DNA of 38,589 bases from Kiritimatiellales bacterium (GCA_030595785.1 JAUVCG010000003.1:1-38589), one strand, 5' to 3'; counted from the first letter of the stretch, positions 10,418-38,351 are shown. The notes: generated from the letters alone by a model not told the origin. Numbers and translations: made by a program.

Positions 10418-10432
10418 AACCATATCCAAATT

Positions 10433-11462: not shown

Positions 11463-11487
11463 TAGTTGTCCATTTCCTGTTTATTTT

Positions 11488-11562
11488 TCCAACACCAAGG
11501 TCGCTAAGTACGCAAAGGCGAGAGATTCCAGCTTCGCGACCTTTGCGGCCTTCTGTTCAAAA
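11488..11562. repeat. CGCTAAG.ACGCAAAGG-type dispersed hairpin, copy 1
   Basis: CCAAGGTCGCTAAGTACGCAAAGGCG...CTTCGCGACCTTTGCGGCCTT; related to 18536-18604 and 19473-19550. Confidence 0.65.
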
Positions 11563-11604
11563 AATCCGATTTCATCCGCAGTTTATATTGGGTTGCACCT
11601 GTTG

Positions 11605-12015
11605 CTAAACTTTACCAAGGATCATCAGCGCGGTAATAAAGCCGAAGACCACGATCCCTTCCGCCAGGGCGACGAAAATCAGAGCCTGACCTGCGACTTC
11701 AGGCTTCTCGGCCACGGCACCCATCGCGGCAGCACCCACGTGGGAGATGGCGATTCCCGCACCGAGGGCCCCCAGCCCGAAGGCTACAGATGCAGCAATG
11801 ACCGCAAACTTCAACCCCCCCATTTCGATCTGGGCGATTCCAGGGTCGGCAGCCACAACGGTTCCCTCCCCATGCCCTGCTTCATCCGCAGCGAATGAAT
11901 TGCTGCAGAAAATAACCGTCACGATGGCCATGATGCTCATCATGCCCGCCACACTGCCCTTAATGTTCTTTTTCAATCTCTTTGCCGGATTGTCCATTGA
12001 TTCTGTTCCTTTCAT
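11605..12015 (-). CDS. atpK: V-type ATP synthase subunit K (c-ring proteolipid)
   Basis: Glycine/alanine-rich two-helix hairpin GLGALGAGIAISHVGAAAMGAVAEKPEVAGQALIFVALAEGIVVFGFITALMI with carboxylate-bearing LAEG. Confidence 0.9.
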   Translation of the reverse strand: MKGTESMDNPAKRLKKNIKGSVAGMMSIMAIVTVIFCSNSFAADEAGHGEGTVVAADPGIAQIEMGGLKFAVIAASVAFGLGALGAGIAISHVGAAAMGAVAEKPEVAGQALIFVALAEGIVVFGFITALMILGKV

Positions 12016-12028
12016 TTTTAGTTCATGT

Positions 12029-15120: not shown

Positions 15121-15154
15121 GGCTAGTTTCTTCCCCTCAAGCTCCTATTCATTT

Positions 15155-15297
15155 TACATTCCACAACCATGCAACCTCTTGTAGTTGGACAACCATTGCC
15201 GATTGCCGATTGCCGATTAAAAAGCAGTAGCTGCCTGCTAACCAATCGGCATTCGGCAATCATCAATCGGCAATCAAAAATCTACGGAAAAGCAGCC
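15155..15297. repeat. Mosaic intergenic repeat, copy 5
   Basis: ACATTCCACAACCATGCAACCTCTTGTAGTTGGACAACCATTGCCGATTGCCGATTGCCGATT...AATCGGCATTCGGCAATCATCAATCGGCAATC. Confidence 0.75.
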
Positions 15298-15627
15298 TTA
15301 ACGGTTTCCTTGATCCTCCGTGGTCAGTATGGTTTCACAGATTTGCTCCACGAGCCGGTCGATGGCATCCGCCTTACCGGTCATCAGGGTTTCCTTTTCC
15401 CGGTCTGCCTCCGCTAACCTCCCGTCGCGCAGACGTTCGGCCTCTTTCCTGGCCTCCTCAACCGCGTTCTGGACGAGTAGACGCACCTCATCCTGAGTTT
15501 CCGCCATTTTTGCGGCGACATCCTTCTCGGCCGCCGCCTTGATATGGGCGGCCTGCGCCCGGGCCTCCTGCAACCGGACATTGACCCCCTCTTCCGCCTG
15601 AAGAACCTCCGTTACAATCTGTTTCAT
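15298..15627 (-). CDS. V-type ATP synthase coiled-coil subunit (G/H-like)
   Basis: Short Ala/Glu/Arg-rich coiled coil (MKQIVTEVLQAEEGVNVRLQEARAQAAHIKAAAEKDVAAKMAE) at the head of the ATPase operon. Confidence 0.75.
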   Translation of the reverse strand: MKQIVTEVLQAEEGVNVRLQEARAQAAHIKAAAEKDVAAKMAETQDEVRLLVQNAVEEARKEAERLRDGRLAEADREKETLMTGKADAIDRLVEQICETILTTEDQGNR

Positions 15628-15793
15628 AGACGGGGACCCTGCATCGTTAACCAACGGGGTTGTAAGTAAACCTTCATCATGTTCCAACCTTTGTTTTCAA
15701 TATATTCTGTCTCATAGAAACCGGCACAAAAAATCCCAGAGGCTCGTCGGCACTCCAGGATTGATTTAAAAACAGGATCATGTGTATTCCGAA

Positions 15794-16129
15794 TCAGATG
15801 GCAAACCCGCCCATAAGCAGTACGATAAAGGTCAGTATACAAACCGCGCTCAGGCCAAGCGAAAACCAGGGCATCGCCCCTTCATGGTTTTTCCGGCAGC
15901 CCAACTTCGACCAGGTGGAGGTCGCCGACAGGGCAAACGTCAGCAACAGTGCCAGTATGAAGGCCGCCTTGTTCTGGCCCGCATGTTCCACCCGGCTTCC
16001 GGCCGGTCCCACCAGCGGCAGGATCATGCACAAAAAGAAAAACGACAACCCGGCGGCCACCGCCAGGATGGTGCCGGTAAGCGGTCGGAAAAGGATTCCG
16101 TTGTCTAAATGGGTTTCTACCTTGTCCAT
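15794..16129 (-). CDS. Small membrane protein of unknown function
   Basis: Three predicted hydrophobic segments; start taken at MDKVETHLDN. Confidence 0.6.
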   Translation of the reverse strand: MDKVETHLDNGILFRPLTGTILAVAAGLSFFFLCMILPLVGPAGSRVEHAGQNKAAFILALLLTFALSATSTWSKLGCRKNHEGAMPWFSLGLSAVCILTFIVLLMGGFAI

Positions 16130-16209
16130 GTTTTCCTCACTAACTGTAAAGGCCAACAGTGTATGCGCGGATTCCAAGGGTTGGAAGAAAAAAAGCGATT
16201 TTCACATCG

Positions 16210-18516
16210 TCAGGAAGCGGTTTGTCTGCCCGGAAGCTTCATTCCATACATGGAGTTGAAGATAACAATGAGATTGGAGAAGACCATGCCGACGGCGCAA
16301 TATTTGGGCGACAGCCACCCCACTCCGGCGAGGAACATGCCGACGATATTGTAGAGGAATGCCCATCCATAGTTCTGCCGGATCTTGCGGCGAACCTTGC
16401 GCTGCATGAAGGGAAGGTCGCGCAGCTTTCCAATCTCCGGAACCATAAAGACGCCGTCCGCGCTCATCTTGGCGGGGATCTGACCGGAGAAGACCGCGAG
16501 GCCGAGATCGGCCGCCGCCAGCGCCTGCGCATCGTTGATACCATCACCGACCATCATAACCGTCTTGCCCTGCCGCTGGAGCTCAGCGATTTCGGTCTGC
16601 TTGTCACCGCTGCCCATTTCGGCGCGATAGTTGCCGATACCCAACTCGTCTGCCACCTGCCGGACGACTGCTTCCCGATCGCCGGAAAAGATGAGCGGTT
16701 CGATGCCTGCTGTCTCAAGGTCGGCCACCAGTGCCTTTGACTCGTCACGAACGGTGTCCCGCAAGCCTGCGATGAGATAGCACTCGTCCGCCGTGCCAAA
16801 TGTTACAATGGTGGAATTTTCCAGGTTGGGCGGAATCTCCAAATCGGGATATAACCCGGCGCTTCCGGCGATATAGTGGAGATCACCGACCTTGGCGGAA
16901 ACGACGGTGCGGGCAATGGTGCGTTCACTCACGGCGCGGGGTGTTCCGACCACCGTGAGCGCACGGGCGATGGGATGCTCGATACCGTTTTCGAGTGAGG
17001 CGAGAATATTGAGAAGGTCCGGTTCTTCATCGACCAGCCATATGATGTCGTGCACTTCCGGCGCACCACGTGTGAGGGTACCCGTCTTGTCGAACACGGC
17101 CACGGTGGGCTTGAGCGCCAGCACGGCCCCATTGAAAATCTGAATACCCAACCCGCGCACTTTTTCAATGGCAGCGGTCAGCACCATCGGCTCGGCAATT
17201 CCAAAGGCACACGGACAAGCCACAATAAGTACGCTCAACAGGCGAATAACCGACTGACTCCTATCCCCCCATAAAATATTGGCAACAAAGACCAGCAGAC
17301 CGATGGCTACCACAATCGGAACAAACACCTGGCTAATTCGATCGCCCAGCGAAAGCTGCTCCTTGCGAGTGTTGAAGGCCTCGATGGTGCTTTCGACGAT
17401 CTTCTGGATCAGGTTGCTTATCCCGGTCGCGGGCACCGACAGACGGGCCCCGTCGGAGAGCAGTTTGGCGCCCGCCCCGACGTAGTGCCCCTGCTCCAAT
17501 GTCACACCGTGCGACTCGCCGGTGATCAAGCTGAAGTCAAACTCGGATGACGCCATCAGGATGCCATCGGTCGGGATAATCTCGCCGCGCAGCACTTGAA
17601 ACTCCTGCCCCGGCTGAAGGTCTTCGGTGACAGCATAGTCGTCGTCGGCGATCCGCGCTTTCTTCGGTAGCTGCCACGCAAGCGAGCTGACGCGACGACT
17701 GAGCTTTTTGTAGAAGCTTCCGGAGATCAGGTTGCCGGTCTCGATAAGCATCAGTAGCAGCGCGACAACGTCGAAGTAGAGATGCGCAAAATCGCCGATA
17801 ACCATCGAATAGACGGAATAGATCCACGCGGCGGTAGCTGATAGAAAGACCAGGCTTTCCATCCGGTACTGACGCATCAGGAGCTGACGAAGGCCGGAAA
17901 GCATCGTGTTCCGCGCGGCATAGAGTGGTACCAGCGTGCCGAACAGCGCGAGAAGAACCGAGCAGACCAGCTGCATCGCAAAGGGCACCTCCCAGCGCTC
18001 GGCGGAGTACACCACGAAAGAGATCATCATGTTGTTGAGCGCAAAAAACCAGCCCGCCCCAAATCGAAAATAGTCGTAGCCGCCGCGCTGCGCGTCGTCG
18101 CCCTCGTAGAACTGATAGCCGAGGGTCTTAATCTTCTGCGCAATGTCGTCCTTACCGATCTTCATCGGGTCATAGGAAAGCGTGCAGGTTTCGGCGATAA
18201 AGTTCAGGTTGATGTTCCCGACCCCGGAAAGCTTCCCGAGGCTGTGGTGAACGAGCCATGAGCAGGCCGGACAAACCATTCCGCCCACAAGGAAGCAAAG
18301 CTCCTGGCCATGCTCCACGTCCTCCTCCATGGCGTTATCAATCTCCTGCCCCGCCGGAAAAACGCCTTCGAGCAGCTGCGTGATGCGCTCGTCGCGCGCT
18401 GAACCTTCCAGCCCCATCTTGCCGACAATGGTATAAACCGCCGCACACCCTGGGCAGCAAAACTCCCCCTCCCCGCCGGGAACGCTTCGATTACAGACTA
18501 TGCAGTGCTCAGCCAT
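16210..18516 (-). CDS. Heavy-metal translocating P1B-type ATPase, CcoI/FixI-like
   Basis: N-terminal CIVCNRSVPGGEGEFCCPGC metal-binding region, HMA-like GGMVCPACSWLVHHSL, CPC in transmembrane helix (VACPCAFGIAEP), DKTGTLTRG, EHPIARAL, MVGDGINDAQAL. Start taken at MAEHCIV. Confidence 0.93.
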   Translation of the reverse strand: MAEHCIVCNRSVPGGEGEFCCPGCAAVYTIVGKMGLEGSARDERITQLLEGVFPAGQEIDNAMEEDVEHGQELCFLVGGMVCPACSWLVHHSLGKLSGVGNINLNFIAETCTLSYDPMKIGKDDIAQKIKTLGYQFYEGDDAQRGGYDYFRFGAGWFFALNNMMISFVVYSAERWEVPFAMQLVCSVLLALFGTLVPLYAARNTMLSGLRQLLMRQYRMESLVFLSATAAWIYSVYSMVIGDFAHLYFDVVALLLMLIETGNLISGSFYKKLSRRVSSLAWQLPKKARIADDDYAVTEDLQPGQEFQVLRGEIIPTDGILMASSEFDFSLITGESHGVTLEQGHYVGAGAKLLSDGARLSVPATGISNLIQKIVESTIEAFNTRKEQLSLGDRISQVFVPIVVAIGLLVFVANILWGDRSQSVIRLLSVLIVACPCAFGIAEPMVLTAAIEKVRGLGIQIFNGAVLALKPTVAVFDKTGTLTRGAPEVHDIIWLVDEEPDLLNILASLENGIEHPIARALTVVGTPRAVSERTIARTVVSAKVGDLHYIAGSAGLYPDLEIPPNLENSTIVTFGTADECYLIAGLRDTVRDESKALVADLETAGIEPLIFSGDREAVVRQVADELGIGNYRAEMGSGDKQTEIAELQRQGKTVMMVGDGINDAQALAAADLGLAVFSGQIPAKMSADGVFMVPEIGKLRDLPFMQRKVRRKIRQNYGWAFLYNIVGMFLAGVGWLSPKYCAVGMVFSNLIVIFNSMYGMKLPGRQTAS

Positions 18517-18535
18517 AGCAGTGTATCGTGAAATC

Positions 18536-18604
18536 CCTCGCAGAGGCACAGAGGTCGCGAAGAAAACAGCGCAACAGCTCTGTGGTCTCAGCGCCTCTGC
18601 GAGG
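18536..18604. repeat. Dispersed hairpin, copy 2
   Basis: Perfect 12-bp arms CCTCGCAGAGGC...GCCTCTGCGAGG plus internal CACAGAG...CTCTGTG. Confidence 0.8.
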
Positions 18605-18644
18605 AACAATCCTGATAGTTTTTATGAAGAAAGGGGATTCCATT

Positions 18645-23728: not shown

Positions 23729-24844
23729 TCAGCCCATCGCAAGAGAAATGACCTCTTTGATCTGGCGTTGGCGAGTTTCTATGCTTTCACAGAGCCGAAA
23801 TTGAACCTGCGCTCGCTGGAGGTTTTGCTCGGGCGATTTCACCTTGAAGTAACGATTCCCCGAGAGATAATCCTGGAAGAAGCGTAATCCAAGCTCAAAG
23901 GTGATCAGACGGATTGAATCGTATAGATATTTCTTATCGTTTTCGGTAAGAAAATCCCTAGCCTGGACAATGTATCCACGAACGAATGCTTCACAGAGAT
24001 CCAGATCGAATGAAACACGACCGAGCTCATTTGTTTCCTCCCCTTCACGATTACATAGTGAGCGTAATGCATCGCCGAAATCGTAATGGATTAGGCCGGG
24101 CTTTGCCGTGTCTAGATCAATAATCGCGGTGCCCTTTCCCGTATCGTCATCGATCATAATATTGCTGATCTTGGGGTCGCCATGAATCAACCGCACCTCG
24201 AGCTCGCCGGCATCCAGTGCGTTATGCAAAACAGAGGAAAACCCGCGCCGATCCTCGACAAAGCGCTGCAGGTTTCGCACTTCCATTGAGCTTCCAATTA
24301 AATCCTTTACCTCGGGCGTTTGCGCAACAGCATCGTATTGTTCCAGATATTTCGGTGTCTCATGAAAGCCGGGAAGCGTATCGCGCAGGCTCATAGGATT
24401 CATGCTGGATACCAGGCGATGGAACAGTCCGAGTACAGTTCCGATTTCGTAAGCGTGCTCAGCACTCTGTGCAACATCGTAGGACTTGGCTGAAGCAATC
24501 AGGGTCAATGCCCGCCAGTAGTGACCATCGGCATCCTTGAAAAAATCCTGTCCGTCTCGACAGGAAACAAGACGCGGAAGCTGCCAGATACGGTCGGCGG
24601 TTGCGCTTTCAGCCTGAAGTTGTTTATGGCAGTGGTTGGTGAGAATACTCATGTTTTCCATGATCCACTCGGGATGAGCGAAAACATGGCTGTTTACACG
24701 CTGGATAATGATTCTCTCTTCAGAAAAGTGGGTACGGAACACCGCCAGATAAGTGTCGTTGACGTTCCCGCTGCCGGTCGGCCGAATACTTGCCAATTGC
24801 CCGGAAACTTCAAATTGTTTTGCAACAGCTGTTGGTGTCATCAC
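23729..24844 (-). CDS. Phosphotransferase (APH superfamily), divergent NahK-like sugar kinase
   Basis: RPTGSGNVNDTYL, RLIHGDPKISNIMIDDDTGKGTAIIDLDTAKPGLIHYDFGDALR, LITFELGLRFFQDYLSGNRYF. Confidence 0.82.
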   Translation of the reverse strand: MMTPTAVAKQFEVSGQLASIRPTGSGNVNDTYLAVFRTHFSEERIIIQRVNSHVFAHPEWIMENMSILTNHCHKQLQAESATADRIWQLPRLVSCRDGQDFFKDADGHYWRALTLIASAKSYDVAQSAEHAYEIGTVLGLFHRLVSSMNPMSLRDTLPGFHETPKYLEQYDAVAQTPEVKDLIGSSMEVRNLQRFVEDRRGFSSVLHNALDAGELEVRLIHGDPKISNIMIDDDTGKGTAIIDLDTAKPGLIHYDFGDALRSLCNREGEETNELGRVSFDLDLCEAFVRGYIVQARDFLTENDKKYLYDSIRLITFELGLRFFQDYLSGNRYFKVKSPEQNLQRAQVQFRLCESIETRQRQIKEVISLAMG

Positions 24845-24864
24845 ATGCCTCCGGGTTTCTGCAC

Positions 24865-25779
24865 TCAGCGTTTTGTAAAATATTTAATTGTGGCCCGGAG
24901 ACCTTCATCAAAACTGCAAGCCGGCATAAAACCGGCCGACGTGATTTTTTCAACAGAGGCCATTGAATGTTTCACGTCGCCGGAACGCTCAGGAGAATAG
25001 TCGATCTTCGAAGACGATCCTGTCAGTTCTATGATTTTCCGGGCGAGGTCATTGATGGTCAACCGCCGACCGTAAGCCACGTTATAGAAGCCGGGAGCGG
25101 TGTCGTTCATGGCGAGGAAAACGTTGGCGGCCACTATATCCTTCACATAGATAAAGTCACGTGTCTGCTCCCCATCGCCAAAGATCGTAATGGTTTCGTT
25201 CCGTACGGCCCTATCGATAAAGATCGGAACCGCAGCCGCATAAGCACTGCCCGGATCCTGACGCGGTCCGAAGACGTTGAAGTAGCGCATGACGCCCGTA
25301 GCGATTTTCCCTTCACGCGAAAACATGTCGCAGTAATATTCCCCGTCAAGCTTGGTGATCGCATACGGGCTCTTGGGCTCCGGCAGCATGGTTTCAATCT
25401 TTGGAACCACTGGATTATCGCCGTAGCTGGCGGCCGAGCTGGAAAAACACATTTTCTTTACGCCGGCCTTGGCGGCCTCTTCCAGCACAACCAGTGTGCC
25501 CGTGGTATTGATCTCCACGCACTCAATCGGCTTTTCCATCGATTCAGGAACGCTGATCATCGCGGCCATATGGAAAATATAGTCCACCCCTGCTACGGCC
25601 GCCTGAACCGTGTCGCGGTCGGTTATCGAGCCATCAACAAACTCGTATTCAAATCCCTGAAGGTTCTCGAGATAACCACTGCGCAGATTATCGAGAACCC
25701 TCACTTCGGCTTTGCCCTGGAAATGCTCAACGATATGGCTGCCAATGAAACCGGCTCCACCTGTTACAAGTATTGTCAT
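24865..25779 (-). CDS. NAD-dependent epimerase/dehydratase (UDP-hexose/HexNAc 4-epimerase-like)
   Basis: ILVTGGAGFIGSHIVEHF, SSSAASYGDNP, SPYAITKLDGEYY, RYFNVFGPRQDPGSAYAAAVPIF. Confidence 0.9.
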   Translation of the reverse strand: MTILVTGGAGFIGSHIVEHFQGKAEVRVLDNLRSGYLENLQGFEYEFVDGSITDRDTVQAAVAGVDYIFHMAAMISVPESMEKPIECVEINTTGTLVVLEEAAKAGVKKMCFSSSAASYGDNPVVPKIETMLPEPKSPYAITKLDGEYYCDMFSREGKIATGVMRYFNVFGPRQDPGSAYAAAVPIFIDRAVRNETITIFGDGEQTRDFIYVKDIVAANVFLAMNDTAPGFYNVAYGRRLTINDLARKIIELTGSSSKIDYSPERSGDVKHSMASVEKITSAGFMPACSFDEGLRATIKYFTKR

Positions 25780-25784
25780 ATTCA

Positions 25785-25935
25785 GATTCCTGGTTTCTAA
25801 TATCTAAATCCAAGACAAATCCCAAGCCACAATCCCCAACTTTAAAACAACTGGCCTCACCCTGTTTCGAGCATTCTTCTCTTCCCCTTTTGGAATTGTT
25901 TAGAATTTAGAGCTTAGGATTTGGAGTTTTCGTAT
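25785..25935. repeat. Intergenic AT-rich imperfect inverted repeat
   Basis: TTTCTAATATCTAAATCCAAGACAAATCC on one side and GAATTTAGAGCTTAGGATTTGGAGTTTTCG on the other. Confidence 0.5.
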
Positions 25936-25942
25936 CGCGGTT

Positions 25943-27031
25943 TTACCGCGCCACGATTGCCTGCATGGCATCCATCTGTTCCTCCATGGATTGAACCATC
26001 TTGAACTGCTTGCGGCAACGGTCAATATTCTGCCCCTCACGATGTGTTTTGAAATAGGTATCGCCCTGAAGATAGTCCGTGAGGAAACGCAAGCCGATCT
26101 CAAAGGTAATCAACTGACCCGACATGGGAAGCAGTTCCTTTTCCTTCGGCACCAGGAAGCCATCCGCGGTTTCGAGGTAGCCGTTCACCAAAGCTTCGAA
26201 ATAGTCGATATCCATCCATATCCTGGATGTGTCCCCCTCGTCCTCGACCGCCTGGTTAGTCGTGGTGCGGATCATGTCGCCAAAGTCGTAAAGCACCGAG
26301 CCAGGCATCACCGTGTCCAGATCAATCACACACATGCCTTTTCCGGTTACTGTATCGAGCAGCACGTTATTCAGCTTCGTATCGTTATGCGTCACGCGCT
26401 CCGGCAGTTCGCCGGAGGCCAGCAGATCAATGCCCGTATCCACCAGCCCCTCGTGTGCCGTTGCAAACTCAATATCGGCCTTCACGCCGACCGCGCGGTT
26501 GAACGGATCCGCTTCAATGGCAGCCATCAGCGTGTCATAACGCGAGCGTGTGTGGTGGAAGTCGGGAATGGTTTCATGCAGGCGCCCAGGCAGATCGGCC
26601 AGTTGACATTGGAATTCACCGAACGCCTTGGCTGATTCATAGGCCTGATCCGTATTCTCGATCACATCGATGCCCACCGCGCCTTCGACAAACACATACG
26701 TACGCCAAAAATCCCCCGCGGCATCCTGATGGAAATCCTTGCCATCGACCGTCGGGACAAGAGTCAGTACCCGTCGATCCAATTCCCCCGCTCCAGCTTC
26801 TTCAAACTTTTTGCGCTGGTGGCGGGTCACCCGACCAATGTTTTCCATCAGCGCCGGGACATCCTTGAAAATATTATGATTCACCCGCTGGTGGATATAG
26901 TGCACCACGCTTCCGTCCTCGTTGTAGTACGCCTTGTAGGTATCGTTGATATGCCCGCTACCGTACGGCTCTTCACCCAGGTAGGTGCCCGGGCATTGGA
27001 ATGCCGAAGCGATTTCGTTGAACTGTTCCAT
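25943..27031 (-). CDS. nahK: N-acetylhexosamine 1-kinase-like phosphotransferase
   Basis: EPYGSGHINDTYKAYY, RVTHNDTKLNNVLLDTVTGKGMCVIDLDTVMPGSVLYDFGDMIR, ITFEIGLRFLTDYLQGDTYF: strong match to remembered bifidobacterial NahK. Confidence 0.88.
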   Translation of the reverse strand: MEQFNEIASAFQCPGTYLGEEPYGSGHINDTYKAYYNEDGSVVHYIHQRVNHNIFKDVPALMENIGRVTRHQRKKFEEAGAGELDRRVLTLVPTVDGKDFHQDAAGDFWRTYVFVEGAVGIDVIENTDQAYESAKAFGEFQCQLADLPGRLHETIPDFHHTRSRYDTLMAAIEADPFNRAVGVKADIEFATAHEGLVDTGIDLLASGELPERVTHNDTKLNNVLLDTVTGKGMCVIDLDTVMPGSVLYDFGDMIRTTTNQAVEDEGDTSRIWMDIDYFEALVNGYLETADGFLVPKEKELLPMSGQLITFEIGLRFLTDYLQGDTYFKTHREGQNIDRCRKQFKMVQSMEEQMDAMQAIVAR

Positions 27032-27048
27032 GGGTTCCTCCTCAAGTC

Positions 27049-28500
27049 TCAGTTCCGGTATTTTCCGAACTGGAATTTTGTATTCACCGGCTTGTCGCGT
27101 TCGCGAAGGATAATCGCCTCCACCTTCGCAACGATCTCCGGGTGCTGTACCGCCACATTGGTTTTTTCCGAAGGATCGTCCTTCAGATTGTAAAGCTCGA
27201 GCGGGGCTTCAGGATTCTTTTTCACGTTCCGCTTCACGCCTTTCCAATCGCCCATCCGCACGGCAATCTGCCCGCCGTAGCCGGCAAAGTCCCAGAAGAT
27301 AAATTCATGCTTCTTTTGCCGCGCGCCCTGACCCAGCAGCTCGGGCAGGATGCTGATGCCATCGGTATCGGGCGAAACTTCGGCTCCGGCGATTTGCGCC
27401 AGCGTGGTCGGCATATCGTAGTGCGCGCCAATATGGCTGGAGACGGAGCCGGCCGGAACATGTCCCGGCCAGCGGACAATGAACGGCTCGCGTACGCCAC
27501 CTTCGTAGACCGAGCCCTTGAGACCGCGCAGTTCGCCGACGCTGTCGAAAAATTCATAGTCCACCTGCTTGAGGTGGGTCACGCCATTGTCGGAGGTAAA
27601 AATCACAATCGTGTTCTCGTCGATGCCCAGTTCCTTGAGCAGCGCGAATAGACGCCCCATCTGCTTGTCCATGAAGGCAATCATGGCAGCGTAGCAGGCG
27701 CGCGGCGTTGGATGGGGCTGATATGCCCTTCCGGTATACGGGGTCTCTTCCCACTCCCCGAGATAGGCCTCGATCTCTTCCTGCGGAGCCTGGAGTGCCA
27801 GATGCGGAATTACGGTTGGGTAGTAGACGAAAAAAGGCTTGTCATGCTCTTTCCTCACAAACTCCAGCATTTTGTCGGCAATCAATTGCGGCGCATATTT
27901 TTCGCCGGTCACGCCGCGCGTGTTGCCATCGAGGAATTCGGGTTTGCCGTCGCGGTCGAGATACTTCGGGTAAAGGTTATGTGCATGGCGCTGGCAGTTG
28001 TAGCCATAAAAGTGGTCGAAGCCCTTCTTGAGCGGATCGCCGGTGGTACCCGCTGCGCCGAGCCCCCACTTGCCAAAGCACCCGGTTTTATAGCCCTTGG
28101 CCTTGAGGACTTCCGCGATGGTGGTTTCTTCCGGCGGCAGGGGCGTCTGCCCGCCATAGATGGTTGCGCCATTGAGTTCATACTGGTTCGCCTTGATCTC
28201 GCCGTTGTTGCGGATGCAGGCATGACCTCCATGCCTGCCGGTCATCAGGTTGCAGCGGGCCGGGCCACAGACCGGCGCGCCGGTGTGGAACTGCGTAAAG
28301 CGCATCCCCTCCGCCGCCATCTGATCAAGATGCGGCGTGCGGATTTTCTTCTGCCCGTAGCATCCAAGTTCTTTCCAGCCGAGGTCGTCGGCCATCACCA
28401 GAATAATGTTCGGCGGCTTCGAGGAACGGGCCCCTGCCAGAACGGATCCAGCAGTACATGCGGCCGTTGCCGACACCATAAATTTTCGTCTGCTGTTCAT
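27049..28500 (-). CDS. Type I (formylglycine) sulfatase, Tat-like signal
   Basis: NIILVMADDLGWKELGCYG; C-x-P-x-R FGly motif VCGPARCNLMTGR; MNSRRKFMVSA twin-arginine-like leader. Confidence 0.93.
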   Translation of the reverse strand: MNSRRKFMVSATAACTAGSVLAGARSSKPPNIILVMADDLGWKELGCYGQKKIRTPHLDQMAAEGMRFTQFHTGAPVCGPARCNLMTGRHGGHACIRNNGEIKANQYELNGATIYGGQTPLPPEETTIAEVLKAKGYKTGCFGKWGLGAAGTTGDPLKKGFDHFYGYNCQRHAHNLYPKYLDRDGKPEFLDGNTRGVTGEKYAPQLIADKMLEFVRKEHDKPFFVYYPTVIPHLALQAPQEEIEAYLGEWEETPYTGRAYQPHPTPRACYAAMIAFMDKQMGRLFALLKELGIDENTIVIFTSDNGVTHLKQVDYEFFDSVGELRGLKGSVYEGGVREPFIVRWPGHVPAGSVSSHIGAHYDMPTTLAQIAGAEVSPDTDGISILPELLGQGARQKKHEFIFWDFAGYGGQIAVRMGDWKGVKRNVKKNPEAPLELYNLKDDPSEKTNVAVQHPEIVAKVEAIILRERDKPVNTKFQFGKYRN

Positions 28501-28501
28501 G

Positions 28502-29815
28502 CTACATTCCAATCACTGGAAGTTTGGCCGGGTCGACATCCACGATTCCCAGCGGTGTATTGGTTTTCCATTGCCCTCGGGTAAAGTCGGGCACCATGAT
28601 CCGTTCGCTATCCTTCGCAACCGACTCGATGCTCAGCGGCATGATGCTACTCCATGCGGCAGCATCGTACACATCCTGATCGAGCGGCAGCCCGTTTTTG
28701 AGGCAGTAGATCAGCCGATAGTCCATGATAAAATCCATACCGCCGTGGCCGCCCACCTTGCGGGCGACCTCACCCATGGTGCGACTCAGTGGATGCCGGT
28801 ATTTTTCTTCCAGCTCTTTCATCTGCTCGGCAGTCTGCCACTTGTGCCCCAGCGCAATGCGCGGCTCGGGATATTTCCGTGCCATGCCCTTGGTGCCCTG
28901 CAATAGGTGGATCCGGCTATAGGGGCGCGGCGTGCTGACGTCGTGCTGTACCATCACCGTCTGCCCCCTGGCGCATTTGATGAGCGTCGTGTTCATGTCG
29001 CCGCGATAGTTTTCGAGCGAGGCCATGTTCGGTTTATTGTTTTCCGTCGCCCACGCCGTGAAGGCCGCCTGCTGGCTCGACATGGAGACCAGATGTTTAA
29101 ACCGGTTCCCGCGGTTGATGTTCAGACACTGTGCAATGGGTCCGAGTCCATGGGTGGGATAGAGATTGCCGTTCTTGGTGTTGTTTTGATGAAAACGCCA
29201 CATGCCCTGATAGCCGTTCTCTTTGGAAATCAAACCGCACAGCGTATGGATGTAAGCACCCTCCGCATGGGTCAGTTCACCGAAAACGCCCTGCCTCACC
29301 ATGTTGAGCGTCTGCAGTTCGAAAAAGTCGTAACAGCAATTCTCAAGCATCATGCAGTGCTTGCCGGTTTTCTCCGATGTTTCGACCAGTTGCCAGCACT
29401 CTTCGGTCGATGTGGAGGCGGGAACCTCGGTGGCGGCATGCTTGCCGTTTTGCATGGCATGCACACACATCGGCGTGTGCCAGCGCCACGGCGTGGCGAT
29501 ATAGACGAGATCAAGATCGAGGGCGACCAATTCCTTCCAGATCTCTTCATTGCCGGAAAACGTCTTCGCGGCCGGACGCCCGGCATCGGCGAGAATTTTT
29601 GCCGCCTTCGCCACCATCTCCCCGCGCAAATCACACAGCGCAACGATTTCGACATCGCGAATTTTCGAGAGGCGCTTGACCGCCCCCTTGCCGCGCATAC
29701 CCAGGCCAATGATGCCGACGCGGATCTTTCCCCGCGAAGGAGCAGAGCGTGCAATCATCGGAGCCGCAGCCGCCAGCGCGGTTGCAATCAAGAAATCTTT
29801 ACGGTTTGTGTTCAT
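28502..29815 (-). CDS. Gfo/Idh/MocA-fold protein, GH109-like (alpha-N-acetylgalactosaminidase candidate)
   Basis: GIIGLGMRGKGAV NAD-binding motif, TEVPAS, MLENCCY, NLYPTHGLGPIAQCLNINRGNRFKHLVSMSS (GH109-type Y-P-T-H). Confidence 0.85.
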   Translation of the reverse strand: MNTNRKDFLIATALAAAAPMIARSAPSRGKIRVGIIGLGMRGKGAVKRLSKIRDVEIVALCDLRGEMVAKAAKILADAGRPAAKTFSGNEEIWKELVALDLDLVYIATPWRWHTPMCVHAMQNGKHAATEVPASTSTEECWQLVETSEKTGKHCMMLENCCYDFFELQTLNMVRQGVFGELTHAEGAYIHTLCGLISKENGYQGMWRFHQNNTKNGNLYPTHGLGPIAQCLNINRGNRFKHLVSMSSQQAAFTAWATENNKPNMASLENYRGDMNTTLIKCARGQTVMVQHDVSTPRPYSRIHLLQGTKGMARKYPEPRIALGHKWQTAEQMKELEEKYRHPLSRTMGEVARKVGGHGGMDFIMDYRLIYCLKNGLPLDQDVYDAAAWSSIMPLSIESVAKDSERIMVPDFTRGQWKTNTPLGIVDVDPAKLPVIGM

Positions 29816-32592
29816 CACTTCATCTCCCTGTAGTTAATGCCCACCGCATCGAAGCGGCGTTCCTGTACCTTCATGCGTTCGAGAAAGCTTTCGTAGTCCT
29901 TTTGCTCCTGCGGGAGCCACACCAACTCGGTGAGGGCACAGGCGCGCGGGAAGGCCATGTATTCCGCGTGTTTCATCGACGGAATATATTCCGTCCAGAT
30001 CTGACCCTGTGCTCCGAGAATGTGTACAGCCGTTGCTGCATCGACCCCTTGGATGACCGGCTCAAAGTTGTAGACTTTTTCCAAGGGCAAGTAACCGCCA
30101 ATGGCCAGCGGCTCGTTCTTCTTGTCCTTGCTTTGGTAGTAGTCGAAATAGAGGCTTCCGTTGGCGGCCACAACAATATCGTGTCCCTCCTCGGCAGCTT
30201 TCCTGGCAATCTCCAAACCATGGGTTTGCCCGGCCTTTCCGCGCCACCACATCACGGCCGCATTTTCGGCCAGTCCACCCTCCGCTATCTCGTCCCAGCC
30301 GATCAGCCGGCGGCCATTGTCCACCAGAAAGTCATCGATCTGCTTGATGAACCAGCTCTGCATTTCGTGCATATCCTTCAAACCGCGCTCTTCGCGCAGC
30401 TGCTGGATGCGCTCGCTGGCCTCCCACTGATCCTTCTTCGCCTCATCACCGCCTATATGGATGAACTCTGAGGGAAAAAGCTGCATCACTTCGGTCAATA
30501 CATCCTTGCAAAACCGGACGGTGGAATCTTCGGGATTGAGGATGTTTTTACTGACACCCCACTCCGTTTTAACAGGTAGCGGGTTGGTGGTGCATCCCAG
30601 TTCCGGATAGGCCGCAATGGCGGCCTGCATGTGGCCGGGCATATCGATTTCCGGAATAATAACGATGTGGCGCTCAGCGGCATAGGCCACCACCTCGCGA
30701 ATGTCGTCTTGTGTGTAGAAGCCACCGTGCGGCTCCCCGTCATACTCGAACGGAATCTTTTTCTCACGATAGTCACGGATATGGCCTACCACGGTTTCCT
30801 TGCGCCATGCTCCGACCTCGGTGAGCTTCGGATATTTCCTGATCTCGATACGCCATCCCTGGTCTTCGGTTAGATGCCAGTGAAGGGTGTTAAATTTGAG
30901 TGTCGCCATCGTGTCGATGAATTTGAGTACGTCCTCCTTCGGCATAAAATGGCGGCCAACGTCCAGCATCAAGCCGCGCCAGTCAAACCGTGGCACGTCA
31001 CGGATTTCAACCGTCGGAATTTTCCAATCATAGAAACTTTTTTTTGCCGAATAAATTTCCGGAGGCAGGAGCTGACGAAGAGTTTGCGCGCCGTAGAAGA
31101 GACCGGACGCCTGCGGCGCCTTAATGGATACGTAATCCGTGACGCGTAATTCATACCCCTCTTTGCCCAGGGAACTATCTTTCGATGTTTTGAAAACAAT
31201 ATCACCTTTGTTTCCTTGCCGGACCGGAAGCTGGAAGCCGGTGGCGGGACGAAGCTGGGTGGCGAGCAGTTCGGCGGTCTCCTTGGCTGAAGCATCGGCA
31301 TAGGCGATTACAACGTCCGGTTTGAGCTCCCACGTGTCGCCCGTTTCTTTCAGCTCCATCGGCTGCGGAATAATGGCCGGGGAAGCGCCGCCGAGTGCCG
31401 TTGCCACCGGCTGCGTCCAAGCCTTGGGGACAATGTCGCCAAACTCGTCGTAGGCGCATACGGCCGGCGCGTCACAACTCACCACTGCCCGAATAAACAA
31501 CTCTCTGCCATTCAATGTGTAGACTGACTTCGAACCTTCCACAATTTGGAAAACCTTGCCGGTTTCTTCCGCCGTACTGCCGATAAACGTGATCGTGTAG
31601 TTGATGCCATCCTCCGGCTCCACCGCAACGGTGTACGTGCGTTCCTTCTGGTCGAACGCAATGTTTTTCAGCGTAATGCCAGTGGAGGAATAGAAGTCAC
31701 CGCGCAACATGGACGCCGTGATGGCATCCGCCGTCAGTTCGGGACTTTTCACCATGACCCAGGCCAGTCCGGGACCATTCGCGTGAGGTGTTTCATGGTG
31801 GTAATCGTGCGTATCGTCGGTGGCGCAGCCGTAGAGAATGGGCAGCCCCCTTTTCAGCCGCACCGTATTGGCGATATCCCAGACGCGCTCCATGGGCGGC
31901 AGGTCGACACCGTTGCCTTCGTTCAGGCAGCCGCTGCTGGCATTCATGATTTCAACCCCGTGGGCACCCTCGACCGCGGCGAGCTGCTCTCCAGTGATGG
32001 ACGATTTCCAGTTGGGATGGTTGATGTGCCAAAAGATGGGATGATCCGCCTCATCGATGTGGCCATGCACCAGCTTTTCATGCAGCGCCAGTTCCTGCTC
32101 CACCGTGTTCGGGCTTTGCCTTGCCACGGTCAATGACTTCTGAATATTGATCGGATTGGAATGCACCTGTTTCCCGCTGGACAACGCCGATGTCAGCTCG
32201 ACGCTTTCGATCATGATAAACCGCCCTGGTTCTTCGACCCGTTCCCGAACCTCGATCAGCGGCATGAGCCGTATCTGGCGTTTCCCATCGTTCTCGCGAA
32301 ACTGTAGATGCTCTTTCCCCCAGCGGGCTTCCGACCGCTCGACGGCCGCGTCCATTCTATCTGCCTTGTAGTTTTTCCAGTGCTCGCCGCGTGAAACTAC
32401 GTTGTGGTCGGAAAGCGACAGGAAATGGTAGCCCATTTCCTTATAGCGATCCGCCACCGTCTCCGGAAACTCCTTCCCGTCCGACCAGAAGGTATGCGTG
32501 TGCGTATTTCCTTTGTACCACTGCGACCTGGCGGCATAGCCCGTACTCAACCCGATGCACAGCGCAATGGCTGCAAATCTTATCTGCTTCAT
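29815..32592 (-). CDS. PHP-domain metallohydrolase fused to GH20 beta-N-acetylhexosaminidase
   Basis: N-term WYKGNTHTHTFWSDG...LSDHNVVS...IESVELTS...WHINHPNW...GCATDDTHDYH (PHP ligands); C-term GH20: FDWRGLMLDVGRHFMP, LHWHLTEDQGWRIEI, FIHIGGDEAKKDQW, LIGWDEIAEGG. Confidence 0.93.
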   Translation of the reverse strand: MKQIRFAAIALCIGLSTGYAARSQWYKGNTHTHTFWSDGKEFPETVADRYKEMGYHFLSLSDHNVVSRGEHWKNYKADRMDAAVERSEARWGKEHLQFRENDGKRQIRLMPLIEVRERVEEPGRFIMIESVELTSALSSGKQVHSNPINIQKSLTVARQSPNTVEQELALHEKLVHGHIDEADHPIFWHINHPNWKSSITGEQLAAVEGAHGVEIMNASSGCLNEGNGVDLPPMERVWDIANTVRLKRGLPILYGCATDDTHDYHHETPHANGPGLAWVMVKSPELTADAITASMLRGDFYSSTGITLKNIAFDQKERTYTVAVEPEDGINYTITFIGSTAEETGKVFQIVEGSKSVYTLNGRELFIRAVVSCDAPAVCAYDEFGDIVPKAWTQPVATALGGASPAIIPQPMELKETGDTWELKPDVVIAYADASAKETAELLATQLRPATGFQLPVRQGNKGDIVFKTSKDSSLGKEGYELRVTDYVSIKAPQASGLFYGAQTLRQLLPPEIYSAKKSFYDWKIPTVEIRDVPRFDWRGLMLDVGRHFMPKEDVLKFIDTMATLKFNTLHWHLTEDQGWRIEIRKYPKLTEVGAWRKETVVGHIRDYREKKIPFEYDGEPHGGFYTQDDIREVVAYAAERHIVIIPEIDMPGHMQAAIAAYPELGCTTNPLPVKTEWGVSKNILNPEDSTVRFCKDVLTEVMQLFPSEFIHIGGDEAKKDQWEASERIQQLREERGLKDMHEMQSWFIKQIDDFLVDNGRRLIGWDEIAEGGLAENAAVMWWRGKAGQTHGLEIARKAAEEGHDIVVAANGSLYFDYYQSKDKKNEPLAIGGYLPLEKVYNFEPVIQGVDAATAVHILGAQGQIWTEYIPSMKHAEYMAFPRACALTELVWLPQEQKDYESFLERMKVQERRFDAVGINYREMK

Positions 32593-34382
32593 CTTCTACC
32601 CCATAGCTTAAACAACACAACAGCAGATATGATCGCAACGACTGAAAGGATGGTGGCCGGCATAATTTGACCATAAAGCCAGCAGCCGGTGGCAAACAGC
32701 GCGCTATAGACCAGGGCGCAACCTATTACCATACACAGGATACCTCGCGGCAGATTGACAGCATCGCCTTCGACCTTGCCGCCTTCGGCGTCGATGGCAG
32801 CATAGATGCGCTTCCATCCCTTCCCTCCCGGATTGGTTTTTTTACAGAACGACTTGAGTGTTTCTTCGTCGACCGGCTTGGTGAACATCGCGGCTGTAAG
32901 CCATGCCGCTGTTGTGATGCCCACTCCGATCAACAGTTGCTGCCAGCTCTCCAACCCGTTATCCACAACCTGGAAAACCACTGCCACGACAAACGAAACC
33001 ACCATGGCCACCAGCTCGCTGATGGCGTTGATGCGCCACCAGAACCATCGCAGAATAAAGAGCAACCCGGTACCTGCTCCGATCTGCATCAGAATCTGGA
33101 AAGCCTGCAAGGCATTGGTGAGTTGTAACGCTATGGTTCCGGCGGCGACCATCATCAGCACGGTCGAAATCCGGCCCACCAGCACCAGCTCTTTCTCGGG
33201 CGCATCGGGCTTCACGAAGCGTTTGTAGAAATCGTTCACGACGTACGAAGAGCCCCAGTTGAGGTGCGTTGAAATGGTCGACATGTAGGCTGCCGTCAGC
33301 GAGGCCAGCACCAAACCGAGCCAGCCGGCAGGCAGCACTTTCTGCAGCATAGCCGGATAGGCCAGGTCATCATTCACAATGTTCGGATCAACATTCGGGA
33401 AGGCTTCACGTAAACTTCCCAGGTCTGGAAAAACCACCATCGAACAGAGTGCCACAATGATCCATGGCCAGGGGCGCAAGCCATAGTGTGCAATGTTGAA
33501 AAAGAGCACGGCGCCGGTGGCGTTCTTTTCGTCCTTGGCGGCCAGCATGCGCTGCGCAAGATATCCGCCGCCGCCCGGTTCGGAACCGGGATACCACACA
33601 CTCCACCACTGTACGGCGATCGGAATAACCAGTACGGAAACCAGCAGGTTCATACTCTCGGGCGTATAGCCTCCGCCTTCCGCCGGAACCAGCTGTGGAA
33701 ATAGCGATAGTTTATCCGCCACGGCCGGATGGCTGAACAGTGCAGACAGACTGCCGATCTCCGCTGAATTCACTGCAAAGACCGCCGCACCCACCGCGCC
33801 TATCATGGCAATGATGAACAAAACAAAGTCGGTAAGGAGGACCCCTTTCAAACCGCCGAGCGAGGAAAACAGCACCGTAACAATCGACGCCCACACAATG
33901 CAGTTGATTGGAGATAAACCGAGCATTACCCCGCCGATTTTGATCGCGGCCAGCGACACCGCCGCCATGATCATTATGTTGAAAAAGACGCCGAGATAGA
34001 TCGCACGGAAGCCGCGCAGAAAGGCTGCCGTTTTCCCGCTATAGCGGATTTCGTAAAACTCCACATCGGTTAAAACCTCGGACCGCCGCCAAAGTTTTGA
34101 ATAGATGAAAACCGTCAGCATACCTGTCAACAGGAACGCCCACCAGACCCAGTTGCCCGCCACACCATTCTTTCGAACAATGTCGGTGACGAGATTGGGC
34201 GTATCGGTCGAGAAGGTGGTCGCCACCATCGAAACCCCCAGTAGCCACCACGGCATGTTCCGCCCTGACAGGAAAAAGTCAGAGGAGCTCTTCCCCGCCT
34301 GCCGCGTACACATTATGCCGATGCTCAGCGCCAGCACGAAGAATCCTAAGATAAATCCCCAATCCAGTCCTGTCAGTTGCAC
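32589..34382 (-). CDS. Sodium:solute symporter (SSS/SLC5 family)
   Basis: Multi-TM; SSSDFFLSGRNMPWWLLGVSMVATTFS...WVWWAF. GTG start at 34382 preceded by AAGGAG. Confidence 0.92.
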   Translation of the reverse strand: MQLTGLDWGFILGFFVLALSIGIMCTRQAGKSSSDFFLSGRNMPWWLLGVSMVATTFSTDTPNLVTDIVRKNGVAGNWVWWAFLLTGMLTVFIYSKLWRRSEVLTDVEFYEIRYSGKTAAFLRGFRAIYLGVFFNIMIMAAVSLAAIKIGGVMLGLSPINCIVWASIVTVLFSSLGGLKGVLLTDFVLFIIAMIGAVGAAVFAVNSAEIGSLSALFSHPAVADKLSLFPQLVPAEGGGYTPESMNLLVSVLVIPIAVQWWSVWYPGSEPGGGGYLAQRMLAAKDEKNATGAVLFFNIAHYGLRPWPWIIVALCSMVVFPDLGSLREAFPNVDPNIVNDDLAYPAMLQKVLPAGWLGLVLASLTAAYMSTISTHLNWGSSYVVNDFYKRFVKPDAPEKELVLVGRISTVLMMVAAGTIALQLTNALQAFQILMQIGAGTGLLFILRWFWWRINAISELVAMVVSFVVAVVFQVVDNGLESWQQLLIGVGITTAAWLTAAMFTKPVDEETLKSFCKKTNPGGKGWKRIYAAIDAEGGKVEGDAVNLPRGILCMVIGCALVYSALFATGCWLYGQIMPATILSVVAIISAVVLFKLWGRR

Positions 34383-34396
34383 GGCTTCTCCTTGAA

Positions 34397-35185
34397 CTAT
34401 GCGTCTTGCTGCCACCTGGGCTTACCGTCATAGACCCACCGATAATAATCGGATAATGTTAGCGCAGATGCGGCGGGTTCGTCGATAAAAACCTTGGCGG
34501 CCGGATGGTGCTGCAAAATCGATGCGGGCATGATGGCCGAGACCGGTCCCTCGACCATGGCCGCAACCGCTTCGGCTTTGCCTTCGCCAAAAGCCAGCAT
34601 CAGGTTCATCCGTGCATCCATGATGGTGCCGATGCCCATGGTGATGCAGTGGTGCGGCACCTTGTTTTCGTCACCATCAAAGAAGCGAGCGTTGTCGGTC
34701 ACGGTCTGCTGCGTCAGCGTTTTGATGCGGGTGCGCGATGCAAACGACGAGGTCGGCTCGTTAAAACCAATATGGCCATCGGAGCCAATGCCCAGCACCT
34801 GCAGATCTATACCGCCATTTGCAATTATGGTGGATTCATACGTTGCGCATGACAGAGGAATATCGTCGGCCATGCCGTCGGGGATATGAACCTTTTCCGG
34901 ATGGATATTGATCTGGCTGAAGAGGTTTTTCCACATGAAGCTGTGGTAGGACTGCTCGTGTTCTTTTTCCAGCCCGGCATACTCGTCCAGGTTGAACGTG
35001 GTGACCTGGCTAAAGTCCAGCCCGTCTTCCTTATGCAGACGGATCAGTTCCCTGTAGAGCACCAGCGGCGTACTGCCCGTGGCCAGTCCCAGCACCGCGT
35101 TCGGCTTTTCGCGTACCAGTCGCGCCACGACGCGCGCCGCAGCCTCACTGGCCGCCTCTCCATTTTCCTTGATGATGATTTCCAT
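34397..35185 (-). CDS. nagB: Glucosamine-6-phosphate deaminase
   Basis: LGLATGSTPLVLYREL, TTFNLDEYAGLEKEHEQSYHSFM, LGIGSDGHIGFNEP. Confidence 0.97.
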   Translation of the reverse strand: MEIIIKENGEAASEAAARVVARLVREKPNAVLGLATGSTPLVLYRELIRLHKEDGLDFSQVTTFNLDEYAGLEKEHEQSYHSFMWKNLFSQINIHPEKVHIPDGMADDIPLSCATYESTIIANGGIDLQVLGIGSDGHIGFNEPTSSFASRTRIKTLTQQTVTDNARFFDGDENKVPHHCITMGIGTIMDARMNLMLAFGEGKAEAVAAMVEGPVSAIMPASILQHHPAAKVFIDEPAASALTLSDYYRWVYDGKPRWQQDA

Positions 35186-35982
35186 TAGAATACCTCCTTT
35201 AAAGCTTCGGTGCCCATCGGGACATACTTGCCGCCTTCGATCATGTTGACTAATTCACCCTCCTGCCATTTGCGAAGGCGGTACAATGTTGCAAACGAAC
35301 AATCCAGAGCAGCACCGCCCTGCCCGCCCACCAGTTCGCCACCCCGGCGGACGTTATCCTGCATCCACGCGGGCAGCAACAAATGGTATGGGTTTCGAGC
35401 CACCTCCTCGACATGCAGGGAAGTTGCAGCAACAAGATCGGCGACGGTTTTGATATCGGCCTCGACCATCAGGTTCGGGTCGTCCATTGCGCCCCAGTAT
35501 TCCGTTTCCACCACGACACATGAAAAATCGGACTCCATTTTCTCCAACGCATCCACAACCAGAAAGTGAGTCGAAATATGCCGCGAGTTCCAATCCTTGG
35601 AGTGTGGTACAAAAATGATTTCCGGCCGGAAGTTTTCAAGAATCTGAACCATATCTTCGACTTCCAGTGCCTGAAAGTTTTCCGGTTCATGATGAATTTC
35701 CCAACCGAGATAGTTGCAGGCACTTTCCAACTCCCCGGCTCGGCCGGCCTGTCGTTCGACATCGCTTCCGAACGTGACTGGAATATTTATGATCTGCTTC
35801 CCCAGCTCCCTCATTAAGCGCAGCGGCAAAGCACCCGTGATGCACTCATCATCCGGATGTGGTGAGAACAACAGCACCTTTGATGCTGATTCCACCGGTT
35901 CCACTTTGCCGGAAACCGATACGCTCCTTGCCAATTCAGTCGCTCGCTTAATGCTTTCAACAAATTCAAGATATGGATTCAT
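35185..35982 (-). CDS. PIG-L/LmbE family N-acetyl sugar deacetylase
   Basis: VLLFSPHPDDECITGALPLRLM plus second metal motif VPHSKDWNSRHISTH. Confidence 0.92.
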   Translation of the reverse strand: MNPYLEFVESIKRATELARSVSVSGKVEPVESASKVLLFSPHPDDECITGALPLRLMRELGKQIINIPVTFGSDVERQAGRAGELESACNYLGWEIHHEPENFQALEVEDMVQILENFRPEIIFVPHSKDWNSRHISTHFLVVDALEKMESDFSCVVVETEYWGAMDDPNLMVEADIKTVADLVAATSLHVEEVARNPYHLLLPAWMQDNVRRGGELVGGQGGAALDCSFATLYRLRKWQEGELVNMIEGGKYVPMGTEALKEVF

Positions 35983-37367
35983 TTTGATTTTCCAACCATA
36001 GGAAGGCTTGCGGCGGCAACGGCCTGTCCATGCCGCTTGTCCTTCTCGTTCGGGGTTACGATTTCAATCCGCTCTGCCAGCACCGGAAACTCGGCGGCAA
36101 GCACCTCATTGGCTTTTTCAACAATGACCGCCCCGCCTTGTCCGCTGGTCACGCGACCCAGCAGGAGCACCTTTCTGATTTCGTAGAAGTCGGCATAGTG
36201 CGCAATTGAGTAGCCGAGATAGGTTCCAATAGTGGAATAAATTTTCGCGGCGCGTTCGTCGCCCTCGGCCATCCGTTTCTGCACTTCGACAAGTTGTTCG
36301 GGAAATGGCATGCCTTCCGGAAAATCAATGCCGGCCAGCGGGGCAAGCCGCGCCACGGCCTGCTGCGAGAAATACTGCACACCGCAGCCGATATCGCCCG
36401 ACCATTCATCGACGGGGCCGTCTTCGCGATAGTCGACCGGTGCAAAGGCCAGTTCGTTGAGCATGGGTGTAATAGTACCGCAGGGTGTCACATAGCCAAC
36501 AGCTTCGCTGGTTCCCATGGCCAGACCAAGGACAGCATTTTCATTCATCGACATCGAACCGGCCAGCGCGGTCACCTCACCGTCGTTGACAACGTCGAAC
36601 GGAATGTTGCCCCATCGCTCTTTCAAGTCGAAAAAGATACGGCGCACCTTGGATTCGAAATCTGCCGAAGTGACTCCTCTGAAAAGCGAAGCCACGCGCA
36701 CCTCATTATTGACGTAGATGCCTGCGGAACTGCCACCGACAGCATCAACCCGTGGCAGATGAGAGGCTGCACGCTGGAGCGTGTCGTTAATGCCTTCGAT
36801 ATGGTAGTTCGGATCGTTTTCGAAATAGGGATTCCATTCCATCTCTTCGGAAAAAACCACTTCGCCATCGATCACAGCAGCGCATTTTCGGTCGGAACCG
36901 CCGAGGTCGAATCCAATGCGGCACCCGTCGAGATGGCGACCGAGCGGCATGGAGGCTTCGTTGGCCGCAGGAATCTCCCCGAACGAACAGGTGTGGATTT
37001 CCAGTGGCTGAAGATATATCTGCTCTCCGAAAAAGGCATGGTCGAATGCTCGCTCGCCACCGGGTGAATAGATCGCGGCAAGTTTCTCGGTTAGACCGTC
37101 GCATCCTGCAAACAACACCTTGCATCCGCCCCGTTGCCAAAGTAAAAACTTAAGGATGCGCTCCAGATAATGGAGCGTCAGCTCCTCGTTATCTTCTGTC
37201 AGCGGCCGTATGGCTGTCTTGAAAATTGAACAGGTTTCGTCTGGACGCAACAACGCAATGGAAACTTCCACTGATGCATCCGCCTGCTGTAAATAGGCGC
37301 GGTTCCATAATACGGCCGGCACAAATTCCGGATCCAGTTCAGGTTTAATCGATACTTCAACTATCAC
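35979..37367 (-). CDS. ROK-like/ASKHA sugar kinase with about 150-aa N-terminal extension
   Basis: IGFDLGGSDRKCAAVIDGEVVFSEEMEWNP phosphate-1 motif, VNDGEVTALAG, GLAMGTSEAVGY. GTG start with GAGAGG upstream. Confidence 0.8.
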   Translation of the reverse strand: MIVEVSIKPELDPEFVPAVLWNRAYLQQADASVEVSIALLRPDETCSIFKTAIRPLTEDNEELTLHYLERILKFLLWQRGGCKVLFAGCDGLTEKLAAIYSPGGERAFDHAFFGEQIYLQPLEIHTCSFGEIPAANEASMPLGRHLDGCRIGFDLGGSDRKCAAVIDGEVVFSEEMEWNPYFENDPNYHIEGINDTLQRAASHLPRVDAVGGSSAGIYVNNEVRVASLFRGVTSADFESKVRRIFFDLKERWGNIPFDVVNDGEVTALAGSMSMNENAVLGLAMGTSEAVGYVTPCGTITPMLNELAFAPVDYREDGPVDEWSGDIGCGVQYFSQQAVARLAPLAGIDFPEGMPFPEQLVEVQKRMAEGDERAAKIYSTIGTYLGYSIAHYADFYEIRKVLLLGRVTSGQGGAVIVEKANEVLAAEFPVLAERIEIVTPNEKDKRHGQAVAAASLPMVGKSK

Positions 37368-37496: not shown

Positions 37497-38351
37497 ATGA
37501 AGGAGTCGCTGTTAAAGCTGATAGAACCACCGGATTATTTTTCCGGGATTGGTAAAAGCCAATTACCCACACCGACCAATGTGATCCTGTTTCTCCGGAA
37601 GACTAAAGAAATGCTGCAACAGGAAGCCCTGCAAAATCGATCGCACCACCGCTTCGTACTGGCTTTTAACCTCGAAACCGAAGGGCATGTGCATCTTGAT
37701 AATCTCGCGCTGCCGTTCAACTCTGGACAGGCGCTGCTGATCCTCCCCTACCAGTTCCACCACTTCAGCCAGTTGGCCTCCAGCAAGCTCAAGTGGCTTT
37801 TCTGCACCTTCGAGCTCGAACCACGCACTTTCCTCGAACCATTGAGAAACAGGGTAATCAATACAGGTAACAAGACACGGCAGACCATGAAGGATTTATT
37901 GAATGAGTGGCACCAGCCCCATGCGGAACTCCAAGCAGCACAATTGCAGGCGATCTTACTGCACCTACTGCTTTCATTGAAGCAGGATCGCCAGGCATCG
38001 GGCACCGACATTCCACCGGAACCCCAGGACAACCTTCTGCGAACCATCAACCGCCTGATGGACGAATGGCGGGGCAGAACCGTTGTAGTGACCGACCTCG
38101 CCTATGCTATAGGCTATTCTGAATCGCGCCTGCGCGTTTTATTCAAGGACACCGCCGGAATACCGCTTGGAAGTTATATTCAGAACTACCGGATTAACCG
38201 GGCAATGGCATTGCTGCGAACCTCCACACTATCCATCGCCGATGTCGCTGAAGAGGCCGGCTTCGGATCGCCCCAGGCCTTTAGTCGTATCTTCAAAAAG
38301 AAAACCGGACACACCCCCCGCTCCTATCGTCAGTCACTACATTTAAATTAA
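37497..38351 (+). CDS. AraC-family transcriptional regulator
   Basis: Two C-terminal HTHs: VTDLAYAIGYSESRLRVLFKDTAGIPLGSYIQNYRINRAMALLRTSTLSIADVAEEAGFGSPQAFSRIFKKKTGHTPRSYR; cupin-like N-terminus. Confidence 0.95.
   Translation: MKESLLKLIEPPDYFSGIGKSQLPTPTNVILFLRKTKEMLQQEALQNRSHHRFVLAFNLETEGHVHLDNLALPFNSGQALLILPYQFHHFSQLASSKLKWLFCTFELEPRTFLEPLRNRVINTGNKTRQTMKDLLNEWHQPHAELQAAQLQAILLHLLLSLKQDRQASGTDIPPEPQDNLLRTINRLMDEWRGRTVVVTDLAYAIGYSESRLRVLFKDTAGIPLGSYIQNYRINRAMALLRTSTLSIADVAEEAGFGSPQAFSRIFKKKTGHTPRSYRQSLHLN

Follow-up and report, generated by a model that had tools for sequence, protein, structure and literature searches.

A single long open reading frame (ORF) in a 38,589-nucleotide stretch of DNA from a Kiritimatiellales bacterium (here called the window) raised two questions: whether a PHP metallohydrolase and a GH20 hexosaminidase are really fused in one protein, and what the PHP half would do there. 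A preliminary description had given the ORF as 925 aa long and uninterrupted, with the coordinates that we also obtained (Table 1). However, the gene lies on the minus strand, running from 32592 to 29815, and the plus strand carries stops in its frame. The ORF overlaps its neighbours at both ends: its start shares an ATGA with the stop of the SSF gene upstream, and its stop runs into the start of the GH109-type gene downstream. Both enzymes indeed occur in the one protein, as had been proposed, with the PHP module at aa 24-397 followed by the GH20b and GH20 catalytic domains. The linker between the PHP end and the GH20 N-domain has about seven residues. A secretion-like leader had also been noted, and MKQIRFAAIALCIGLSTGYAA looks by eye like a Sec type I signal. 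The fusion of the two enzymes is almost certainly real. The gene lies inside an operon for amino-sugar catabolism, and its product, with two complete, ligand-intact enzymes, is probably exported.

Table 1. Features of the fused gene, of the surrounding operon and of related fusion loci
Feature	Coordinates	Strand	Remarks
Fused PHP-GH20 ORF	29815..32592	-	925 aa, ATG start
Sec-like leader MKQIRFAAIALCIGLSTGYAARS	32524..32592	-	about aa 1-23; by eye, and low pLDDT in first 20 residues
PHP metal-binding barrel	31681..32523	-	about aa 24-304; H31, H33, D38, H63, E132, H144, H192, D260, H262
Beta-sandwich of PHP family	31402..31680	-	about aa 305-397; ends in conserved WTQP
Linker	31381..31401	-	about aa 398-404; aligns with leader end of standalone GH20
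GH20 N-domain (GH20b)	30997..31380	-	aa 405-532; Pfam
GH20 catalytic domain	29911..30987	-	aa 536-894; D716-E717 pair; YFDYYQ from aa 815; Pfam, alignment
GH109-type Gfo/Idh protein	28502..29818	-	
Sulfatase	27049..28512	-	Tat-like leader by eye
APH-fold kinase	25943..27031	-	possibly N-acetylhexosamine kinase
NAD epimerase/dehydratase	24865..25779	-	GalE-like
Second APH-fold kinase	23729..24844	-	
SSF sodium:solute symporter	32589..34415	-	
NagB, glucosamine-6-phosphate deaminase	34397..35185	-	passes TIGR00502 cut-off
PIG-L-type deacetylase	35185..35982	-	
ROK-like protein	35979..37367	-	weak, just below cut-off
AraC-family regulator	37497..38351	+	divergent
GH2-PHP locus	L202:2072-6139		
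PHP-GH5 locus	L203:644-3178		
Calcineurin-PHP loci	L194:239-3007, L195:1599-4412, L197:6590-9391, L198:1932-5216		

The Pfam domain-architecture search proposed in the preliminary description placed GH20b and GH20 above their cut-offs, while the PHP half matched PF02811 with an E-value of 0.016 and 16 bits, below the gathering score of 26.4. Other members of its family likewise fell below this score. The NCBIfam CehA/McbA model (NF038032) matched the PHP half at 2.7e-14 and 53.3 bits, below its curated cut-off of 80, and the nearest standalone relative reached 60.6 bits. Relatives can be aligned over about aa 8-397, where they end at the conserved WTQP; the window therefore has the whole of a PHP protein of roughly 425 aa. 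All nine metal ligands are present. In a 70-row alignment of PHP proteins, H31, H33, H63, E132, H192, D260 and H262 were invariant, the D38 position was D in 68 rows and H in two, and the H144 position was H in 69. The ligand set was thus complete, as first described, but its supposed HxxH-like element was not borne out: ligands six and seven are H144 (VHSN) and H192 (NHPN). The AlphaFold2 model of the PHP half (pLDDT 94.1, pTM 0.91) predicted a barrel followed by a beta-sandwich. All 13 matches with E<=1e-3 in a PDB fold search were PHP proteins, with modest TM-scores of 0.3-0.4 of the query. The best match and closest solved fold was BVU_3505 (PDB 3e38), which also combines PHP with a second domain, at 12-13% identity and a TM-score of about 0.4. 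Homology and predicted fold together settle the PHP assignment of aa 24-397. By sequence, the module is a member of a CehA/McbA-like family that is widespread, uncharacterised and normally standalone, and the HTH...SDG start of the domain is common to it and the CehA/McbA metallohydrolases. Structure prediction, earlier suggested as a check on both domains, was confident for the PHP half. In the full-length model, however, the GH20 part was weak (mean pLDDT 73, with four GH20 rows in the alignment), so no domain orientation is claimed.

The GH20 half matched Pfam GH20b (1.8e-28, 100 bits) and the Pfam GH20 catalytic domain (7.8e-124, 414 bits). The catalytic Asp-Glu pair was kept in a GGDE motif, and both the non-catalytic N-domain and this pair had been recognised correctly at the outset. 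The best solved relative, PDB 6q63 (E 1.6e-141), is homologous to the window protein over aa 403-922 and has the same pair and the same YFDYYQ after the active-site Tyr. Unlike the window protein it has no PHP domain, and its 774-residue chain extends past the matched GH20 part. In the 6-sulfo-GlcNAcase Bt4394, whose motif residues have assigned roles (PMC11659886), YYINR stands in place of YFDYYQ. In the alignment, the window GH20 lacks the sulfate-binding N-R of this Bt4394-type motif, other sulfate motifs being more variable. Since F-D-Y replaces the sulfate-binding I-N-R, the window GH20 probably needs undecorated HexNAc and is probably made for HexNAc without 6-sulfate; the same paper warns that sulfate specificity is not safely predicted from sequence alone.

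The fused gene sits in a hexosamine operon with AraC, ROK-like, PIG-L, NagB, SSF, GH109-like, sulfatase, epimerase and two APH-type kinase genes, in a bacterium that is probably marine. Our main reading, to which we give a probability of about 0.5, joins the fusion to this setting. The protein would be exported through the PHP leader, and the GH20 half would trim non-reducing beta-HexNAc from oligosaccharides outside the cytoplasm. The PHP half, a probable multi-metal hydrolase, would cleave a phosphoester on the same glycan or, as a second choice, another ester-type bond, and one polypeptide would then strip both the decoration and the sugar. The SSF symporter would take up the released HexNAc, which would then be deacetylated (PIG-L), phosphorylated (ROK/APH) and deaminated (NagB). 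Because the GH20 probably needs undecorated HexNAc, decoration-stripping partners fit this setting, the sulfatase two genes away included. Phosphate removal by the PHP domain before GH20 cleavage, the role first suggested for it, is plausible. If its substrate is indeed phosphate or another ester borne on a glycan, the PHP half would supply a step missing from the breakdown of amino-sugar glycans. The two APH-fold kinases of the operon (23729-37367) differ from each other and, with the GalE-like epimerase beside the NagB/PIG-L route, suggest two parallel HexNAc entry routes.

Phosphoester hydrolysis is the established chemistry of PHP enzymes. The choice of a phosphoester follows from this chemistry and from fusions of the same PHP family elsewhere in the class of the window. 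There, PHP precedes GH5 in three genomes (L036, L037, L203), GH2 precedes PHP in one (L202), and a calcineurin-like phosphoesterase precedes PHP in at least four (L194, L195, L197, L198). The partners thus differ from that in the window, and in the GH2 and calcineurin cases so does the domain order. The nine ligands were kept in every fused copy tested. These PHP domains share 27-30% identity with that of the window, and in a tree built without the GH2 and calcineurin fusions the GH5-linked ones lay on long branches away from its clade; the three types probably arose separately from PHP-GH20. As Rosetta-stone evidence, the GH5 and GH2 fusions support a tie between the PHP family and glycans and hint that it works on them, and the calcineurin fusions tie it more weakly to phosphoesters. 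The PHP half is most likely a glycan-linked hydrolase of the phosphoesterase kind. We propose only tentatively that the whole family consists of unrecognised carbohydrate-active metalloenzymes that strip phosphate-type glycan decorations and are repeatedly welded to the glycosidase they serve (GH20, GH5 or GH2). The PHP-GH20 pairing is a substrate clue for a large uncharacterised family of polysaccharide-degrading bacteria, and if the PHP half does act on such an ester the question becomes directly testable, because the partner glycosidases narrow the substrate. In two more Verrucomicrobiota genomes, a laminin-G-like lectin domain comes after PHP (above the cut-off in L035, below it in L034). 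At two further loci (L199:2035-4959 and L200:3600-6086), PHP had N-terminal parts of about 380-520 aa matching no Pfam family.

The PHP half might instead be an active metallohydrolase other than a phosphoesterase, cleaving a carbamate, an acyl or sulfate ester, a lactone or a product of the 3-keto-glycoside route, which we regard as somewhat unlikely. The characterised members of the nearest named model, CehA and McbA, cut carbamates (PMC8292978), so other bonds are possible for the PHP half. They are distant relatives, however, with the window PHP below the NF038032 cut-off, and are not glycan-linked in that paper. Most solved PHP relatives among the fold matches are annotated as phosphoesterases, and the calcineurin-type fusions point the same way, though from distant cousins. 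The neighbours of standalone PHP genes argue in the other direction. Of 73 close co-directional neighbours, 8 were DUF1080 3-keto-disaccharide hydrolases, whereas distal genes included at most 1 in 110 (p=0.003). Collapsed to lineages, the comparison became 4 versus 1 (p=0.07), and we treat this adjacency as a lead, not proof. Four of the eight belonged to the nearest kin of the window PHP, in Opitutales, and three of those four had a sulfatase upstream, so that the nearest standalone relatives are flanked by both genes. Sulfatase adjacency to standalone PHP was not enriched (4/73 adjacent, 6/110 distal). In these closest standalone cases (L049, L051, L052, L053), the small DUF1080 gene lies downstream, almost touching, and the upstream gene is mostly a HEAT-repeat sulfatase; a three-gene catabolic unit is possible.

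A sister genome of the same genus (G028) has the operon in the order AraC, ROK, PIG-L, NagB, an extra gene, SSF, standalone GH20, GH109, sulfatase, kinase, epimerase, another sulfatase and kinase. Its GH20 (534 aa, 78% identity to the window GH20) occupies the same slot with its own leader, MFARQTTILCVLIAGSATFATPALIPLP; its GH109 and sulfatase are 85% and 80% identical to their counterparts. In the window, the join KAWTQPVATALGGASPAIIPQP consists of the PHP end and then a stretch that aligns with the end of this leader. Of this leader, the start and core have been lost, as has any inter-gene gap; the PHP gene was thus joined to the GH20 at its leader. Since the orthologous GH20 has no PHP partner, GH20 action as such does not depend on PHP, which counts against the main reading. 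A second genome of the genus (G003) has ROK, PIG-L, SSF (87%) and GH109 genes, and no GH20 was found in its orthologous operon. Just before its GH109, a 13-residue piece, FDAAGINDRETE (L170:11341-11379, E 0.85), resembles the GH20 C-terminus and is suggestive of a remnant of a lost GH20.

A search of 42 relatives of the order at E 1e-10 gave no match to the PHP half, and the module was not detected elsewhere in the genus. In the PHP tree, five Opitutales proteins formed its sister group (99/97) and Pelagicoccus followed; horizontal gain would be the simplest reading. An in-frame deletion may simply have joined two neighbours, with PHP supplying an export leader and the enzymes acting on unrelated molecules. 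This is unlikely in our view: other genomes of the class carry the same PHP family joined to GH5, GH2 and a phosphoesterase, the start of the PHP gene and the stop of the SSF gene overlap within one operon, and the ligands are intact despite a long branch. Still, at the join the end of the full PHP gene meets precisely the end of the GH20 leader, the fusion was seen once, and the operon differs in composition among the sister genomes. An assembly or binning error, with PHP and GH20 being separate genes or from different genomes, is very improbable even though the fusion comes from a single MAG (1.78 Mb, 59% complete) and PHP went undetected in the order relatives. The join is in frame, and such an error would have had to remove the greater part of the leader together with all of the inter-gene gap, not a single base. 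GC and GC3 run continuously across the join and match the rest of the contig; GC3 reaches 0.71 in the PHP part and 0.66 in the GH20 part, values like those of the neighbours, hence no composition break. The flanking SSF and GH109 both belong to the same-genus operon.

The main reading concerns an architecture known from one incomplete MAG, within a family that is common. PHP relatives occurred in 41 of 388 sampled genomes of the window's phylum, 60 of 346 of its class (a sample overlapping that of the phylum), 66 of 392 Planctomycetota and 23 of 346 Bacteroidota, that is, in about one-sixth of the Planctomycetota and one-tenth of the Verrucomicrobiota sampled. Neither the roughly 1,300 genomes sampled nor the 80 best GTDB matches yielded a second PHP-GH20, counts in which few candidates were scored per genome and part of the class sample's long ORFs were opened, so that a rare case can be missed. 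The 80 GTDB proteins were standalone or at most N-terminally extended, and a plasmid search with PHP gave two distant matches only. Long PHP ORFs in three Planctomycetota (G719, G510, G797) were rejected as fusions; they had no other Pfam domain and may reflect over-long starts. The preliminary description knew of no characterised example, and the literature that we searched, on PHP with GH20, hexosaminidase, glycosidase or CehA, likewise contained no PHP-GH20. Both folds are known; the architecture is new as far as searched. PHP modules do occur in similar carbohydrate-degrading, cell-surface settings, namely in Paenibacillus JDR-2 1611, an exported CCT/PHP/BIG3/3SLH protein of a polysaccharide degrader (PMC4765114), and among the modules named in a B. 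cellulosolvens cellulosome paper (PMC5590126), but are listed there without a GH20 catalytic domain or a function.

Elsewhere in the window, positions 7086-18609 carry V/A-type ATPase genes (A, B, E, I and C subunits), adjoined by a heavy-metal P-type ATPase with a DsbD-like gene.
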